IMG/VR virus record: IMGVR_UViG_3300033142_000349
Coordinates: 1-35,617 of that record
Length of the DNA stretch: 35,617 bases
Direction: 5' to 3' (one strand)
Source of the DNA: a virus
The notes under the pieces are model-generated. The model had not been told where the DNA came from, did not search any database, and was given only the letters and a program-made list of their open reading frames with translations. Both the position numbers and the translations under genes were made by a program. Positions 5,597-34,370 of this stretch are shown here, piece after piece; positions within the stretch are counted from its first letter, which is position 1, and every line of letters starts with the position of its first letter.

Positions 5597-7141
5597 ATGA
5601 GTTTAAATCCAGCGTTGGGTCCAAATTTGGAGCCCGCTCAGAAGCGAATGACATTAACTACTAACTATTTGTCTTTTACAGATGGTGATAATGACTTCGC
5701 ACAACAATACCTACCAGAGCTTTATGAGCAAGAGGTAGAAAGATATGGTAATAGAACTATTGCCGGATTCTTAAGAATGGTTGGCGCTGAAATGCCAATG
5801 ACATCTGACCAAGTTGTATGGTCTGAACAAAATAGATTACATGTTGCTTATGAAACATGTGAAGTAATAGATGATACTACAATTAGAGTAGCTATTGACC
5901 CAGATGTTTCTGCAGCTGGTGGTACAGTAGGTAACAAAGAATGTGCTATCAAAATCAACCAAACCTTAGTGGTTTATGGAAATGGTACTACAGGTGCTGG
6001 AATTGGTGAAACAATGAAAGTAATTGTAACTGCTGCTCCTAGCAACTACACAGGTGGTGGTGCTGGTGTAACTAGAGAATGTGACGTAACAGTTGCTCCT
6101 TATACTGCTGCTGGCTTAACAGTTGGTTCTGGTGGTGTTTTCTCTGGATCAGGATCTTCTGGTGGTGTTAACTCTGCTGTAGCTGTATTTGTTTACGGTG
6201 CAGAATGGGTGAAAGGTTCTAACACAGATGCATTAGCTTCTATCGAACCAGATTTCACACAGTATTCTAACTCACCTATAATCATAAGAGATAAGTTTGA
6301 GATCAATGGATCTGATACTGCTCAAATTGGTTGGGTTGAAGTTTCTACTGAAGATGGAACATCTGGATTTTTATGGTATCTAAAGTCTGAATCTGAAACA
6401 AGATTAAGATTTGAAGATTACATGGAGATGGCAATGGTTGAAGGTGAACTTGCTACTGCTGGTTCAGCTGTGGCTGGTATTGCTTTATCTAACGCTGCTT
6501 TTACAGGTAACAAAGGAACTCAAGGTTTATTTGCTGCTGTAAGAGACAGAGGACATGAGTATCAAAATTTCGCAGGTGCTGGCGGTGGTAATGCTGCTTT
6601 AGCTGACTTTGATGAAATTTTAGCTCAGTTAGATTTTGAAGGAGCTATTGAAGAAAACATGATTTTCTGTAATAGATCTTTATCTCTAGCAATGGACAAC
6701 ATGATGGCAAACGTTAACGGATCAGCTCAAGCTGGTGGTGCTAACGGAGCTTCTTATGGTCTATTTGAAAATGATGCTAATATGGCATTGAACTTTGGGT
6801 TTGATGGTTTTAGAAGAGGTTCTTATGACTTCTACAAAACTGATTGGAAATATCTTAACGATGCTTCTACTCGAGGTTTAGCAAAAGATATCGAAGGTGT
6901 TATGGTTCCTGCTGGAACTTCAACAGTTTACGATCAAATGCTAGGTTCAAATATCAGACGTCCATTCTTGCACGTTAGATATAGAGCTTCAGAAACTGAT
7001 GACAGAAGACTTAAGTCTTGGGTTACAGGTTCTGTAGGTGGAGCTTACACATCTTCTTTAGATGCTATGGAAGTTCACTTCCTATCTGAAAGATGTTTGG
7101 TAACACAAGCAGCTAACAACTTTATCTTGTTCACTACTTGA
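5597..7141 (+). CDS. Major capsid protein
   Basis: This 514-residue protein is the best candidate for the icosahedral shell subunit, presumably with the HK97 fold. Support: it directly follows portal and scaffold genes, it is followed by a strong terminator, and its length fits. Its codons use more C-ending forms than neighbouring genes. Residues about 125-205 form a Gly/Ser/Thr/Val-rich block that looks like a beta insertion domain on the capsid surface. The C-terminal part (RRPFLHVRYRASETDDRRLKS) resembles a structured capsid core. It ends in three consecutive in-frame stops (TGA TAA TAA), unlike most genes here, which end in a single TAA. No N-terminal protease-processing site is obvious. 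Confidence 0.8.
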   Translation: MSLNPALGPNLEPAQKRMTLTTNYLSFTDGDNDFAQQYLPELYEQEVERYGNRTIAGFLRMVGAEMPMTSDQVVWSEQNRLHVAYETCEVIDDTTIRVAIDPDVSAAGGTVGNKECAIKINQTLVVYGNGTTGAGIGETMKVIVTAAPSNYTGGGAGVTRECDVTVAPYTAAGLTVGSGGVFSGSGSSGGVNSAVAVFVYGAEWVKGSNTDALASIEPDFTQYSNSPIIIRDKFEINGSDTAQIGWVEVSTEDGTSGFLWYLKSESETRLRFEDYMEMAMVEGELATAGSAVAGIALSNAAFTGNKGTQGLFAAVRDRGHEYQNFAGAGGGNAALADFDEILAQLDFEGAIEENMIFCNRSLSLAMDNMMANVNGSAQAGGANGASYGLFENDANMALNFGFDGFRRGSYDFYKTDWKYLNDASTRGLAKDIEGVMVPAGTSTVYDQMLGSNIRRPFLHVRYRASETDDRRLKSWVTGSVGGAYTSSLDAMEVHFLSERCLVTQAANNFILFTT

Positions 7142-9994: not shown

Positions 9995-11866
9995 ATGGCA
10001 GAATCAAAAAATACTTTTATAAAGTCTAAGATGAATCAAGATCTAGACAGTAGATTAATTCCTAATGGTGAATATAGATCAGCATTTAATATCGCAGTAA
10101 GTCAAAGCGAAGGATCTGACGTAGGAACATTAAGAACTGTACTAGGTAACTTAGAAATTAGTGATTTTGGATTCACTGAAGAATGTAATGTAAAAATTAT
10201 AGGTCACTGTGTTGACGATGAAAAGAATTTTATTTATTTATTCTTTACTAACTTTATTGATACTTCTTCTGATAAATTAAGTAATTATCCTTCGGATGAA
10301 GCAATCTGTCAGATTTGGAGAAGAGATCTTGAAACGAGTAGTAATGTAAAATTAGTGGAAGGAAAGTTTCTTAATTTTTCTCTAACACATCCTATATCTG
10401 GTATTAATGTATTAGAAGAATTACTTTTTTGGACAGATAACAGAAATCAACCGAGAAAAATTAATATTAGTAATGCTAATCCTAGTGCTTCTATAAATCC
10501 TACATACTATACTAATGATGATCAAATAAATGTTATTAAATATTATCCTTATGATCCTATTTTATTAATAAATGATTATGTAGTAGATTACACTATAAAT
10601 ACCGGTACAGTTGGGGATTATAGTGCTTATATAGATGATATAGTATATACATTAGGTGGATCAGGTACAGGAATGACTGTAGAAATTACTGAAGCTACAG
10701 GATTTCCTGGACAACTACGTGGAATTAAAATTATAAATCAAGGTGTAGGATATCAAGATGGAGATGTAGTTGAAATAGCACCTAAAATTGGAGATGCCAC
10801 AATCACTCTTCAAATGGAAGTTGGTACTACCATGAAAGACAAGTGTACTGAAAAACTCCCGGTTAATTCTACTTTCACAGTTTCACCACTAGCTGATTTA
10901 GATAATGGGTTGCCTATTGATGTAATTCATGACTCTGGACCAGAGTTAGATGAAGTAGATTATACAGGAGCTTTAGTAAGAATTACTGGAACAAGCGCTA
11001 GTCCTTATTTAGCAAGAGTTACTGGTCAATCTTCGGGAACACCTGATACGTTAACTATTGAATGGCCTAATATAATTCCTACTCAAGTAACTGATGTAGC
11101 GTTAATTGAAGTAGGTATGAATCCTGACTACGATCCTAATTGGCCAGGTGATTGTGAATATTTAAAAGACAAATTTGTAAGATTTGGTTATAGATTTAAG
11201 TTTAATGATAACGAATATTCTCTTATTTCTCCATTTACACAAGCATGTTTTATACCTAAACAAAATGGTTATTTTTTATCTAAAACTAAAGAAGTATTTG
11301 ATGCAACAGGTATAGCGTCCGAAGTATCCATTACAGACACTCAACAAACGTTAGAAAGTACAGAAGTAGAGTTTTTTGAAAATGCCGTTACTAATGTAGA
11401 TTTAATTATTCCTTGCCCAATATTTTTAGATGAAAGTATATCAGGATTTAATAATTTAACAGAACAATTACATGTAGAAGCTATTGAAATAATATATAAA
11501 GATGATGCAGAAACTGTATTAAAAGTAGTAGATGTTATTGATAAAGTATCTTTTTCTAATATAAATTCTAATATATTGTTATATGATTATCAGTCTAGAA
11601 AACCCATAAAAGTATTACCTGAATCTGAAATAACTAGAGTAAGTGATAAAGTGCCTTTAAGAGCTTTAACGCAAGAAGTTGTAGGCAATAGAGTAATGTA
11701 CGGTAACTACATCGATGGTCATTCTAGTTTGAATAGTTTAAATTATGAAGTAAATGCAGGTCCTAAATTTAATCTTCCTGAAAACACATTAAGAAAAGAA
11801 TATCAAAACCATACATTAAAACAAAATAGAAATTACCAAGTTGGAATTGTTTTATCTGATAGATAA
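9995..11866 (+). CDS. Large tail/virion protein, N-terminal piece
   Basis: This is the first 623 residues of the large tail protein. The start (ATG four bases after the previous stop) is well placed. The opening (NTFIKSKMNQDLDSRLIPNG, then YRSAFNIAVS) resembles, from memory, the start of very large tail proteins of marine phages. The protein is beta-rich and Asp/Asn-rich, with no catalytic motif seen. Residues about 221-262 hold a Gly-rich repeat unit ending GVGYQDGDVVEI that recurs in the next piece. The frame stops at TAA after LSDR, but coding continues directly beyond it. In a podovirus-like virion this could be a tail hub, nozzle or muzzle component; that is inference from size and position. 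Confidence 0.65.
   Translation: MAESKNTFIKSKMNQDLDSRLIPNGEYRSAFNIAVSQSEGSDVGTLRTVLGNLEISDFGFTEECNVKIIGHCVDDEKNFIYLFFTNFIDTSSDKLSNYPSDEAICQIWRRDLETSSNVKLVEGKFLNFSLTHPISGINVLEELLFWTDNRNQPRKINISNANPSASINPTYYTNDDQINVIKYYPYDPILLINDYVVDYTINTGTVGDYSAYIDDIVYTLGGSGTGMTVEITEATGFPGQLRGIKIINQGVGYQDGDVVEIAPKIGDATITLQMEVGTTMKDKCTEKLPVNSTFTVSPLADLDNGLPIDVIHDSGPELDEVDYTGALVRITGTSASPYLARVTGQSSGTPDTLTIEWPNIIPTQVTDVALIEVGMNPDYDPNWPGDCEYLKDKFVRFGYRFKFNDNEYSLISPFTQACFIPKQNGYFLSKTKEVFDATGIASEVSITDTQQTLESTEVEFFENAVTNVDLIIPCPIFLDESISGFNNLTEQLHVEAIEIIYKDDAETVLKVVDVIDKVSFSNINSNILLYDYQSRKPIKVLPESEITRVSDKVPLRALTQEVVGNRVMYGNYIDGHSSLNSLNYEVNAGPKFNLPENTLRKEYQNHTLKQNRNYQVGIVLSDR
10655..10779 (+). repeat. Gly-rich beta repeat unit, copy 1 (protein level)
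   Basis: The encoded segment begins GGSGTGMTVEIT and ends NQGVGYQDGDVVEI. The same pattern (GGSG-G-TV ... G-GY--GD---I) occurs at 12179-12311. Such units are common in phage tail and bacterial surface beta structures. Confidence 0.6.
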
Positions 11867-12673
11867 TATGGTAGGCAATCTGATGTTATATTATCTTCTT
11901 TAGATGATGCATTGTCTTTTGCGGCTGGGGAAGCTTTTCTAGGTTCTACTATATATCATCCATATAAACCTGGTGGTTGGTCTAGACAAAATATTATTAC
12001 AGACGGTAATCGTACTTGGCCAGGAGATACTTTAAATGTAAGATTTAATGAGGTTATTCCTACTAATCCTGGAATTCCTGGTTATCCTGGTTTATTTGTG
12101 GGTTCAGATGCACCTAGTATTAGTAGTTTATATGGAGGAGCCGGATATCCATCAGGTCTATTAGGTGTTAGCACAACAGGTGGATCAGGTGTAGGATTAA
12201 CCGTTAATTATACAACTTTTAAACCTACCATATTAAGTAACATAATATCAGTAGAAATAGCTGATCCTGGCTTTGGATATGAACAAGGTGACATTATAAC
12301 TATTAATGGAGGAACGCCTGGTAACGAAGCAACATTTATTTATAATCCTTCTCAAACTCCAAAATTAAATGGGTGGTATAGTTACAAAATAGTTGTAAAG
12401 CAGACTGAACAAGATTATTACAATGTTTATCTACCTGGTATTGTAAATGGAGAAATAAATACTTCGGGTGTAGCAACCGCTTCAACAGCAACGTTAAGTT
12501 TATATGCTGACAATATAAATAAAGTTCCTAGAGATTTAACAGAAGTTGGTCCTACACAAAAAACTTTTAACTCAAGTGTAGAATTATCAATAAGAGTGAC
12601 TAATGATTATCAAATACCTTGGACTAGTAATCAATTTTACCCTGACACAGCTACTGAAAAAGTTTTACATTAA
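11867..12673 (+). pseudogene. Large tail/virion protein, second piece (no own start)
   Basis: This stretch continues the previous frame after a single TAA. It is clearly coding (YGRQSDVILSSLDD, then GGWSRQNIITDGNRTWPGD), yet has no Met codon; the only near-start is TTG at 11912, inside the conserved-looking region and with no ribosome binding site. It therefore makes sense only as part of the larger protein. It carries the second Gly-rich repeat unit. Toward the end, VTNDYQIPWTSNQFYPDTATEK runs into VLH and a stop, while the -1 frame continues with sensible sequence. It is expressed only if the stop and frameshift are artefacts or are bypassed. Confidence 0.65.
12179..12311 (+). repeat. Gly-rich beta repeat unit, copy 2 (protein level)
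   Basis: The encoded segment begins GGSGVGLTVNYT and ends DPGFGYEQGDIITING, matching the layout of the unit at 10655-10779 with about 45 residues per unit. This supports the view that both pieces belong to one modular tail protein. Confidence 0.6.
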
Positions 12674-12759: not shown

Positions 12760-14289
12760 ATGTCTGTAATTATTACTGAAAATAATGGTAATATAAGAGT
12801 TCCTTTAAGTGATAATATATATGTTACTTCAACTTATATTAACTCTGGAGCGTTTAATCAAGTTAATTTTAATGAAACTGTTGCAGGTATAGCTGCTACA
12901 GATACTATAACTTTTGGTCCTCCAGGTATAATATATAATTCAAACAATAATCCACTTATAGGTATATTAAGTACTTCTGAGCAAATAGGTGTTGCAGAAG
13001 AAGATGATTTTAAAGTGCAATTAGCCGTTGCTGAAACTCAACCTTTTGAATCTAATTTAGAAGTTTATTATGAAACAACAAGTGCTGGATTAATACAAGA
13101 TCTTAATGTAGCTATACAAGAAGGTGCTGGAGCCGTAGCTGTTCCATTTGCAATTGACACTATAGATACTGCTAGCTGGAACGAATCTCAAACTGGACCA
13201 TTTGCAATTACTAATAATTTTGGTTTGTTAGACGCAACAAACTCCCCATTTGTAGATCCAAATGCTGTTGGAGATTTAGTAAGTGTTTTTGATGGAAATA
13301 ACAATACTAGAGATGGTGAGTTTCAAATAAACAATCTAGGTAATGGTACTTTTAATATATCTACAGTTAAAGCGCCAGGTGAAGGTTTTGTAGTATTACA
13401 AGATGAAAATTTAACAGATTTTACTTTTAATGTATCTATTCAAAGTCAAGGAATAACTTTATTTAAAACTTTCAGTGAATCTATAAATAATGAAAGACCT
13501 GTTTATGGTGGTAGTTATGATGTTCTTTCAATTCCTGGCTACAAACTTCCAGTGGGTTCTGCATATATTTTTCCTACCGATCAAACTCTTCTTCCAACAA
13601 AAGGATCTTTAATAAACGGGAATGATATATTTTCTGCTGTAAACGGAAGCGGAGATGTAAATTTAGAAAAACAAGAATTAAAATGGACTATAATAAGTGC
13701 AATATGTGTTGGTGGAGAAAATAAAACTGAAGTGGAATGGAACGCAGCTCCAGATGGTGGTAATAATGTTGTTGCGTGGCCAGCAAATGGTTGGTGGGGT
13801 CCTTTTCCAAATAGTGTAGACAGTACAGCTATCTATCAAAATAATCCACAATCAAGTGTAGGATATAACAGCTTCCAAATATTGAATGGGGCAAATTATA
13901 TGGAAATGTTTCATTGGGCTCTTTTAAATCCTAGTTTACTTGATCCAACTCAAGATAATCCTAGTGCGACAAATAATAAATGGGGAGTAAACACTGGTGG
14001 ACCGCCATTTGGACAAGTTACAACCTTCAACAATAAAGCAAGATTATGTACGTATAATGGAGTAAATGGAGGATTAGGATCAGGAGGGGGATTAGTATAT
14101 ACTGATCGGCCTGCGAGTAATGCTGGTGTAAACAGTGCTGGTGTTGGCTGGACAAGTACTGGGTATAAAGCTAGTTCTTTCGTTAAGTTTATAGACTTTG
14201 AAGTAAAGATTAAAGTTGAAGATAGAAATGGTCAGGGTTTAACTCCTAACACACAGGAAGTAGTTTTAAACGTTAGATTTCAATATTAA
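12760..14289 (+). CDS. Large tail/virion protein, third piece
   Basis: The frame opens upstream of its first ATG (12760): from about 12664 it encodes RRITKDINSVLGGGTGITYN, so the ATG is not a natural start. The 509 residues after the ATG are beta-rich and full of Asn, Gly, Ser and Thr, with no catalytic motif, as in tail or receptor-contacting structures. A Trp-rich stretch (VAWPANGWWGPFPNS) lies near residues 345-360. It ends VVLNVRFQY followed by TAA, and the next piece continues in the same frame. There is no Shine-Dalgarno before the ATG. If the gene really is split, this piece would need its own initiation. I regard it as the central part of the composite gene. Confidence 0.6.
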   Translation: MSVIITENNGNIRVPLSDNIYVTSTYINSGAFNQVNFNETVAGIAATDTITFGPPGIIYNSNNNPLIGILSTSEQIGVAEEDDFKVQLAVAETQPFESNLEVYYETTSAGLIQDLNVAIQEGAGAVAVPFAIDTIDTASWNESQTGPFAITNNFGLLDATNSPFVDPNAVGDLVSVFDGNNNTRDGEFQINNLGNGTFNISTVKAPGEGFVVLQDENLTDFTFNVSIQSQGITLFKTFSESINNERPVYGGSYDVLSIPGYKLPVGSAYIFPTDQTLLPTKGSLINGNDIFSAVNGSGDVNLEKQELKWTIISAICVGGENKTEVEWNAAPDGGNNVVAWPANGWWGPFPNSVDSTAIYQNNPQSSVGYNSFQILNGANYMEMFHWALLNPSLLDPTQDNPSATNNKWGVNTGGPPFGQVTTFNNKARLCTYNGVNGGLGSGGGLVYTDRPASNAGVNSAGVGWTSTGYKASSFVKFIDFEVKIKVEDRNGQGLTPNTQEVVLNVRFQY

Positions 14290-14316
14290 ATAACAGTAAA
14301 AACAAGTGATTATAAT

Positions 14317-16041
14317 ATGAGTGCTATAGTAGAGGTAAAGTATTTCAATTCATTTTGGTTAAAAAAAGTAGAAAAAACATTTGGAGGAAGTCCTAGTCCT
14401 ACTGAATCAACACCTACTTGGCCTGGAATAGACTGGAATCCATTTGGTTATCCTGCTTTTCCAATTGAAGGAGCACCAAATGCAGAAACTGAATCGGAAG
14501 GTAATTGGTATATAGAAGAAGCTCGAATAAAAGGTGGCTTTAATAACACTATGGTCTCTCAAGGAGTAAGAGCTTATGCTAACGAAGAAAATCCAGTTCA
14601 AGACTTAAGATCATCTTCTATTATTTATTCAGGAATTTACAATTCTAGAACTGACATTAATAGAACCAATGTTTTTTCTTCTAGTGAGGAAATAACCAAA
14701 ACTTTAGATCCATCATTTGGGAGTATTCAAAAGTTATTTGCAGAAGATAACAATCTATTAATGTTTCAAGAAAATAAAGTAAGTAAAGCTTTAATTGATA
14801 AAGATGCTATTTATTCAGCTGAGGGTGGAGGAACTTTAACAAGTTCTAATGTTGTGATTGGAGAAACTATTCCTTATTTAGGAAGGTACGGAATTGGAAG
14901 ATATCCAGAATCGTTTGCTCAGTTTGGTTTTAGAAAATACTTTGCTGATCCAAATAGAGGTACTGTAATGAGGTTATCTAGAGACGGTTTAACGGAAATA
15001 TCTGAATATGGAATGAAAGATTTCTTTAGAGATAAATTAACCGAAATAACTAATAATTATTCTACTGTTAATATTGGTTGGGTTTTTGATGGAATTCCTG
15101 ATCCTAGTGCTGTTACTAGTTTTACAGTAGAAAACTTAGATGCTTGTAATATATTTATAGGAAGTAAAGTGTTTAATGAAGTTGCATCTGCGTTTATAGA
15201 TACGGGTGCCATTGTAACTAATATTGAAGCATTAGGAACTAGTCCAGAAACTTATGCTATAACAGTAAATAAACCTTTTATAGCCCAAGCGTCTGGAGCT
15301 TTTTCATTTGATTATAAAAGTAGAATTATAGGAAGTTGGGATAATTTTAGTAAATACTATACTTTATCCATACAATCAACACCTTCTTTTATAAGTGAAA
15401 CTGAAGATTATTTTACATTATCTTTTGATGAAGGAGTAAAGGGATGGGTTAGTTTTTTCAACTATAAACCGTCAACAGCTTTTAGTTTAAAAGGAAAGTA
15501 TTATACAACCATCAACAATAAATTATACGAACACTACGATCAAAGTATAGGAAATAATTTTGGTATTTTTTATCAAAAAAGTTATCCGTCTACTATTAAT
15601 TTTATTATTAATGCAGAACCATCTCTTAAAAAAGTATTTACCACTATAAATTATGAGGGAGATAATGGTTGGCGAGTTAATGGTATATTAAGTTCTCCAA
15701 CAAGAGTAAATCTTCCTCCTAATGAATCATCTTCAGACTTTACTAATAGTATTTATAGTTATAAAGAAGGTTTATATACTGATGCTCAAGGTTATCCTAT
15801 AAGATGTGGTTTTGATAGAAAAGAAAATTTGTATGTGGCTGCGTTAAAAGATAATTCACTGTTTGAAGATGGACAAGTTTTAGTAGGTAGTAGTACTACA
15901 GGATTAAAAGGATATTTTTTAGATGTCACTTTACAAACAGATGGTAGTATAGATTCATCTGGAGTATATAATGCTGTAACTGATCCAGGAGGATCAAAAG
16001 AAATTTGGTCAGTAGGAACAACTTTTGTTAAATCATCTTAA
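14317..16041 (+). CDS. Large tail/virion protein, C-terminal piece
   Basis: The last 574 residues of the composite tail protein. Nine sense codons between the TAA and this ATG (ITVKTSDYN) are in the same frame and flow into MSAIVEVKYFNSFWLKK, so the ATG is probably an internal Met. A Pro/Gly linker (residues about 25-50) is followed by conserved-looking structural segments: SIIYSGIYNSRTDINRTNVF, SIQKLFAEDNNLLMFQENKV and RYPESFAQFGFRKYFADPNR. From memory these resemble the ends of very large tail proteins in marine flavophages. No enzymatic residues were recognised. It is followed after 10 bases by the cupin gene. Confidence 0.65.
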   Translation: MSAIVEVKYFNSFWLKKVEKTFGGSPSPTESTPTWPGIDWNPFGYPAFPIEGAPNAETESEGNWYIEEARIKGGFNNTMVSQGVRAYANEENPVQDLRSSSIIYSGIYNSRTDINRTNVFSSSEEITKTLDPSFGSIQKLFAEDNNLLMFQENKVSKALIDKDAIYSAEGGGTLTSSNVVIGETIPYLGRYGIGRYPESFAQFGFRKYFADPNRGTVMRLSRDGLTEISEYGMKDFFRDKLTEITNNYSTVNIGWVFDGIPDPSAVTSFTVENLDACNIFIGSKVFNEVASAFIDTGAIVTNIEALGTSPETYAITVNKPFIAQASGAFSFDYKSRIIGSWDNFSKYYTLSIQSTPSFISETEDYFTLSFDEGVKGWVSFFNYKPSTAFSLKGKYYTTINNKLYEHYDQSIGNNFGIFYQKSYPSTINFIINAEPSLKKVFTTINYEGDNGWRVNGILSSPTRVNLPPNESSSDFTNSIYSYKEGLYTDAQGYPIRCGFDRKENLYVAALKDNSLFEDGQVLVGSSTTGLKGYFLDVTLQTDGSIDSSGVYNAVTDPGGSKEIWSVGTTFVKSS

Positions 16042-32511: not shown

Positions 32512-32730
32512 TTATTTTATTTCACAAGCTCCACCAGCACAAGCTAGTTCACCTGATAAGTCCGTGTTATCTTCTGTTTCTGTTATGTTTGATAGATCAA
32601 CTTGTTTTAATGATTGCATTAACTCTTGATACTTACGACACGTTATATCCTCAAAAGGAGCTTGAGTATAAGTTCCACCATTAAATGGTAATACAGATAA
32701 ACCATTATAATGTTCTCTGTTTTCCCACAT
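32512..32730 (-). CDS. nrdJ: Class II ribonucleotide reductase, C-terminal piece
   Basis: This frame continues the reductase after the frameshift: WMWENREHYNGLSVLPFNGG, then TYTQAPFEDITCRKYQELMQ, which is the family's usual end region. The protein closes with CAGGACEIK, the Cys-x4-Cys pair (Cys611 and Cys616 in the joined protein) that carries reducing power to the active site in cobalamin-dependent ribonucleoside-triphosphate reductase. The reading frame is open up to about 32749, so the ATG at 32730 is an internal Met. Without this piece the enzyme could not be re-reduced, so either the frames are joined or the enzyme is dead. Confidence 0.8.
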   Translation of the reverse strand: MWENREHYNGLSVLPFNGGTYTQAPFEDITCRKYQELMQSLKQVDLSNITETEDNTDLSGELACAGGACEIK

Positions 32731-34370
32731 CCATTCACCAGCATCGCCCCTTCTGGTTTCAAACTTACTGTTGCTGAAACATTGTGAGTATTAGATCCTT
32801 TTCTATGACCAGGTGTGACCCACTCTGTGGCAACCTTTTTTATACGTTCAAGTAACTGAAATGGTGACTCAGTCCTAAGTATAGATCCTTCAGGTGCTTT
32901 TTGTGGTATACTTATCACAGCAGTATCATGAGGTCGGAAATACTCATCTTCAATTAGCTCAGGATGATGTTCAGCTAAGTATTTATACATTGATTCGTTC
33001 TTCCCAACTCTGACCCTACGTATGTAATAATCATTATGCCATGCATGAATACCCGATGAAGTTCCTAATGCCAGAGATGTCGTCCCTGCAGGCTTCACGG
33101 TTGTACATCTTGCAGCTTTATTAATCCCAATCAGCTTCGCGACTCTTGTGTTTTCTCTTTTTACTACTTGGGCGGCTTTCTCCATGTCGTATCCTAACAC
33201 CGTGCCACTCCCGATCCCCGTCATGCTCACCCCAATCAGCGCGTCTTTTTCGGTTGTCTCTTGCCATATTTCTCTTAAATAGTGAAAGTCTGTATAGCCA
33301 GCTTGTAATGTTCCAATGAACGCAGCAGCTTTCACTCTGTTGTTTAAATCTTCTTGTGATTCAATATCACTAGCATTTACTTCACATAAGTTACAAAACT
33401 GATATGGTCGTAAAGCTATTTCACAACAAGGATTAGTTCCCCAATCTTTGTCATTGTTGAAGTATATACCTGGTTCACCAGCTCCAGACAATTCCACACG
33501 TTTCCAGAGTTTCATAAAATATTCTTTAGTAATTTTATGTCTCATTAAAACCGCAGAGTTATTAGCTCTACCTCTTTGTGGATTAGTTTCCCACCAATCA
33601 CCAGACTTACATGCTATCATTTCATTGTCATCAGCAGAGAATAAAGATATCAAAGCTGCTCTTCTAATACCACCTGCTAAGACAGCGTCTGCTATATGGC
33701 AAACAATATCATGAACTTCTACAGTTGTCAACTGATCTCCATCTTCTTTTGATTGTAATATTCCTTTAAGCTTTACTAAACATTCTTTTAAAGGTTGTGG
33801 GCCAGGAGCTTTACCTCCTGACGTCACTAGCTGAGCACCTTTAGGTCTTATGTCTGAGTAATCGAAACTAATTCTTGACGATCTTCGATCACCCATATAA
33901 GACTTCATTAGCACTTTAATTGCATCAGCCCAACCTTCAATTGAATCACCAATAAGAAATCTTCTCCTACGTTTTTCATAAGGTTTATTTATAGGAGGTA
34001 ATTTGTTTACATGGTGGTTCTGAACAGAATACCCTACTCCTGTTCCTCCAAGAAGCAAAAACATTACTTCGTGGAAAGAATCTACATGGTCAATAGGGAG
34101 ATAAGCGCAGTTATATACTCTATTAGGAGATATCTCAATCGGCTTGCCGCCGAATTGTAAACTCCGCATGCTTGGTAAAACCTTCTTTTCATATACTAAT
34201 TTATAAACATCATTTATTTGATCCGCTAATTGCGGATATGTTTTAATATGCATTGCTTTATTTCGATCTACTAATTCTTCCCAGGTTTCCCTACGTTTTT
34301 CATTAGGTAGATATTTCGCATATTTCATGTACACTGTAATATTAGATAAGATTTCACTTGCTAATTCCAT
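32643..34370 (-). CDS. nrdJ: Adenosylcobalamin-dependent (class II) ribonucleotide reductase, main piece
   Basis: Makes deoxyribonucleotides from ribonucleotides for phage DNA replication, using a radical generated from vitamin B12 coenzyme, so no separate radical subunit is needed. Active-site residues by family comparison: Cys88 (YNCAYLPID), the thiyl-radical Cys315 (NPCCEIAL) and Cys326 (FCNLCEVN). The 11-residue spacing between the last two equals that in the Lactobacillus monomeric enzyme (Cys408/Cys419). Other landmarks are GTGVGYSVQ, KPAGTTSLALG and the GHRKGSNTHNVSATV region. After KPEG the frame goes wrong. Joining the pieces by restoring one G gives about 619 residues. The start overlaps the upstream gene by 17 bases. 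Confidence 0.9.
   Translation of the reverse strand: MELASEILSNITVYMKYAKYLPNEKRRETWEELVDRNKAMHIKTYPQLADQINDVYKLVYEKKVLPSMRSLQFGGKPIEISPNRVYNCAYLPIDHVDSFHEVMFLLLGGTGVGYSVQNHHVNKLPPINKPYEKRRRRFLIGDSIEGWADAIKVLMKSYMGDRRSSRISFDYSDIRPKGAQLVTSGGKAPGPQPLKECLVKLKGILQSKEDGDQLTTVEVHDIVCHIADAVLAGGIRRAALISLFSADDNEMIACKSGDWWETNPQRGRANNSAVLMRHKITKEYFMKLWKRVELSGAGEPGIYFNNDKDWGTNPCCEIALRPYQFCNLCEVNASDIESQEDLNNRVKAAAFIGTLQAGYTDFHYLREIWQETTEKDALIGVSMTGIGSGTVLGYDMEKAAQVVKRENTRVAKLIGINKAARCTTVKPAGTTSLALGTSSGIHAWHNDYYIRRVRVGKNESMYKYLAEHHPELIEDEYFRPHDTAVISIPQKAPEGSILRTESPFQLLERIKKVATEWVTPGHRKGSNTHNVSATVSLKPEGAMLVNGCGKTENIIMVYLYYHLMVELILKLLLRI

Follow-up and report, generated by a model that had tools for sequence, protein, structure and literature searches.

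The window, by which is meant the whole 35,617-nt stretch of viral DNA that was analysed (IMG/VR record IMGVR_UViG_3300033142_000349), carries a large structural gene that the first-pass annotation had described as a tail gene and that was identified here as the gene for a crAss-like muzzle protein; a separate gene that follows it encodes the C-terminal muzzle part (Table 1). An in-frame TAA at 11864-11866 closes the ORF given in the window as 9995-11866, and the reading on its two sides is QVGIVLSDR-stop-YGRQSDVILSS. The 268 codons that follow (11867-12670) contain no Met, as had been annotated, and the sole alternative start in the ORF list behind the stop was a TTG at 11912. About 800 bases past the first TAA the frame is lost again, at a TAA located at 12671-12673, by way of a 31-base deletion relative to L005, the relative used for the detailed alignment; this second loss of frame had not been recorded in the earlier annotation of the stop.

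Identification of the muzzle gene was based on profile matches to the two ORFs. The segment upstream of the first TAA matched Pfam PF25731 (crAss_MUZ; E 3.6e-14, 52.3 bits, cut-off 27) and PHROG 14478, a virion structural protein (E 1.1e-43), and the ORF at 14317-16041 matched PF25729 (crAss_MUZ_C; E 8.3e-11, 42.6 bits, cut-off 27) as well as another part of PHROG 14478, a Pfam muzzle model thus being matched by both ORFs. In crassviruses the muzzle serves, according to published work, as the gated tip of the tail (PMC10172136). Structure prediction with AlphaFold gave a weak model, with a mean pLDDT of 57.8, which is too poor for an argument about domains; the only Foldseek match of this low-confidence model below 1e-3 was 7qol_P, a tail chain of phicrAss001 (E 4e-4), with a low TM-score, and PDB sequence searches returned no match. 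Homologues were found in cultured phages, namely Cellulophaga phi38:1 (Pervagoviridae) and the Flavobacterium elemo phages, although none of the cultured phages found was nearly identical to the window. The relatives that belong to genome bins come mostly from Bacteroidota MAGs, and the host is most likely a Bacteroidota bacterium. The window opens inside the terminase gene (1-1963), the profile match to which begins at position 88 of 758, and it is therefore a fragment of a larger genome.

Table 1. Features of the muzzle locus and of the second interrupted gene in the window.
Feature	Position	Strand	Basis
N-terminal segment of the crAss-like muzzle gene	9995..11863	+	623 codons, frame intact up to the stop; PF25731, PHROG 14478; 99% identity to L005
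In-frame TAA, where the window contig alone has 3 extra bases (tandem ATA)	11864..11866	+	L005 alignment; junction codons of relatives; IMG/VR scan
Second segment of the muzzle gene, Met-free, frame unchanged	11867..12670	+	Protein 100% identical to L005, where it is contiguous with the first segment
Site at which 31 bases of L005 are missing, frame shift -1	12661..12662	+	L005 alignment; L001 and other relatives open across the site
Third segment of the muzzle gene, open in the -1 frame up to its natural TAA	12661..14289	+	One ORF in relatives; same end in L001 and L002
Separate C-terminal muzzle gene (conserved split)	14317..16041	+	PF25729; ATG of its own, conserved in ~70 relatives, frame relative to preceding gene varies
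Interrupted ribonucleotide reductase gene (~4 bases deleted near 32751)	32643..34370	-	Relatives intact

Division of the muzzle into two genes is a conserved property of this clade. In about 70 relatives an N-terminal ORF of ~950 to 1870 codons closely precedes a C-terminal ORF whose start is conserved, the spacing between them ranging from a 1-base overlap to a 91-base gap. Homology to the crAss-like muzzle is clear, and the gene arrangement is different. As in gp44 of phicrAss001 (PMC10172136), a crAss_MUZ part, here the N-terminal part, is accompanied by a crAss_MUZ_C part, here the next ORF, but in the clade of the window the two lie in adjacent genes, the first of which is broken twice in the window contig. 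A single polypeptide with ring-joining, propeller, Ig and crass domains was not found, the N- and C-terminal parts being encoded in separate ORFs. The large virion structural protein of phi38:1 and the elemo phages is homologous and lies in the same gene order, whereas in those phages it is encoded by one unbroken ORF of 3975 or 4413 bases.

Readthrough of the TAA at 14287-14289, which ends the first muzzle gene, was considered and rejected. An in-frame continuation past this stop is present in the window, L001, and L002; elsewhere the frames differ or gaps intervene, and the downstream gene has its own conserved ATG. Because the frames and gaps vary among relatives while the ATG is conserved, this TAA is a genuine gene boundary. 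The bases just ahead of that ATG (14290-14316, read as KTSDYN) are conserved in several relatives regardless of their frame to the preceding gene, a pattern that points to a conserved DNA or mRNA element where this downstream gene begins.

The site of the first TAA was compared with its relatives by codon alignment. L005 is 99.07% identical to the window over 11.4 kb, and at 11863 the window has 3 extra bases, ATA, which form a tandem copy and have the same flanks in L005 on both sides; this insertion is the sole difference between the two sequences from 11327 to 12547. The corresponding motif, D-R/K-Y/F-G-R, was uninterrupted, with no stop and no extra codon, in the ~85 relatives that were codon-aligned and in 109 by motif count, so that a stop at the site of the TAA is conserved in 0 of 109 relatives, plain sense codons standing there throughout. 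An exact scan of IMG/VR recovered the plain, uninterrupted form in 11 contigs and the ATA insertion in no second contig. The annotated view that the codons on both sides of the TAA belong to one protein was borne out, as all relatives that span this position have a single open frame there. Of the origins that had been proposed for the stop, the comparison favours an inserted codon or a sequencing error over readthrough, given a 3-base insertion relative to the relatives, no stop in any of them, and a second lesion in the gene.

Over the aligned 11.4 kb the window and L005 differ by three indels: in the window the ATA insertion at 11863 and the 31-base deletion at 12661, in L005 a loss of 17 bases from the scaffold gene. 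The last of these, near position 2742 of L005 (4720-4736 in the window), breaks the scaffold gene and is private to L005, the window being intact there. A survey of gene breaks was carried out on 12 genes at about 90 loci, with homologous coding sequence totalling about 1.2 Mb. The window held the sole broken copy of the muzzle gene among 90 loci, and the ribonucleotide reductase gene, the C-terminal part of which runs on to about 32512 in a different frame, was unbroken in the other 80 relatives (81 loci including the window). Only three further breaks were found in the survey, one in the scaffold gene of L005 and one each in the major capsid gene of L049 and L058. By hand calculation, the 3 breaks in about 34 kb of the window, compared with 3 across about 1.2 Mb, amount to a ~30-fold excess, where about 0.1 would be expected. 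Apparent stops in g278 were discarded from the survey as they lie upstream of the true ATG and represent no lesions. Codons that differ between the window and L005 were synonymous in 7 of 7 cases in the portal, scaffold, and capsid genes together and in 3 of 3 in the second muzzle segment. Since the SNPs relative to L005 are mostly synonymous, purifying selection on the underlying virus is normal and its genome is not decaying.

The two capsid lesions are independent nonsense codons (TAA at L049:4891-4893 and TGA at L058:4861-4863) at the same major capsid codon of two diverged relatives, a codon that corresponds to residue S442 of the gene at 5597-7141 in the window. Their sister contigs, L319 for L049 and L315 for L058, are 99.9% identical to them and have TCA at this codon, and over 8 to 9 kb no difference other than the stop was recognised as breaking a gene. 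Past the stop, 72 residues of the capsid protein are conserved. In the IMG/VR scan this codon was a stop in 2 contigs and Ser or Thr in at least 120.

The TAA at 11864-11866 is best explained as a private, frame-neutral extra ATA in the gene for one continuous muzzle protein, and it would have no programmed function. Together with the 31-base and ~4-base deletions, it forms part of an unusual indel load of the window contig, and these indels most likely arose during sequencing or assembly, from low coverage or from chimeric or amplification-damaged reads. While the insertion itself, its absence from relatives, and the other lesions were observed directly, their cause is inferred, and a technical error at the level of the contig is the probable one. 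If technical indels occur in contigs from this population, the private 17-base scaffold deletion of L005 is as expected. Two observations run against a technical origin: indels of 3, 31, and ~4 bases away from long homopolymers are not the commonest error of any one platform, and the 31-base deletion is flanked by only 2 bases of microhomology. The deletion at 12661 could be a real mutation. Recent real mutations may even account for all of the lesions, in which case the contig would represent a defective or passing genome or a minority variant, slippage and a short deletion having disrupted its muzzle gene and left a non-functional 623-residue product. A tandem copy of ATA is readily produced by replication slippage, and flanks otherwise identical to L005 are what a very young mutation would leave. 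However, a replicating phage would hardly be expected to have three independent indels that disrupt essential genes within a single 35.6-kb contig while showing no further sign of decay, and the scan found the insertion nowhere else; this explanation was accordingly judged unlikely, although it is the most serious competitor to a technical error.

Readthrough or recoding of the TAA, by which the gene would yield a short as well as a long muzzle protein, agrees with the perfect continuation of frame and protein sequence past the stop and with the stop-codon recoding known in some crAss-like phages (PMC7886860, PMC9523058), in which, as here, an in-frame stop lies in a late structural gene of a Bacteroidota phage. 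The published cases, however, involve TAG (to Gln) and TGA (to Trp) (PMC7886860; see also PMC11210395), and the single genome described with a TAA-suppressor tRNA had no reassignment of TAA (PMC7886860). In the window, unlike in these cases, there is a single TAA, private to one contig, the pattern is not genome-wide, and the gene that holds the stop is also frameshifted; no tRNA gene, suppressor or other, was found in the window, itself a genome fragment. TAA is its ordinary terminator, ending 19 of the 24 ORFs, which qualifies the earlier statement that the other genes end in TAA, since 3 end in TGA and 2 in TAG. Among the window genes compared with relatives no other in-frame stop was found, and genome-wide reassignment of TAA was ruled out by the use of TAA as a terminator and by the open frames. 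Even with the TAA suppressed, the full muzzle would not be restored, because the frameshifting 31-base deletion lies in the same gene, and an insertion and a frameshift that are both private to one gene of one contig cannot be a conserved readthrough signal. Programmed readthrough of the TAA is not supported by the comparison and appears very unlikely, and the production of two muzzle proteins from this gene was given only a slight chance. Slighter still is the chance that the phage truly carries both the TAA and the frameshift and builds a working muzzle, either by readthrough combined with frameshifting or by the assembly of fragments made separately. A natural gene end at 11864-11866, with a second protein with its own start behind it, had been named in the first-pass annotation as a case that would refute its reading; it is ruled out at this site by the relatives and is the least credible of the explanations considered. 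The muzzle of this clade is truly split in two genes, but the split lies downstream, at 14289/14317; a boundary at 11864 is present in none of the relatives, whose frame is continuous, and the Met-free stretch argues against it as well.

Were readthrough nevertheless real, recoding of TAA would be unusual for this group, whose published cases concern TAG and TGA; the evidence points against it, and a false lead on TAA recoding is thereby removed. The muzzle and ribonucleotide reductase gene models of the window contig should be used with caution, as both are broken by private indels.
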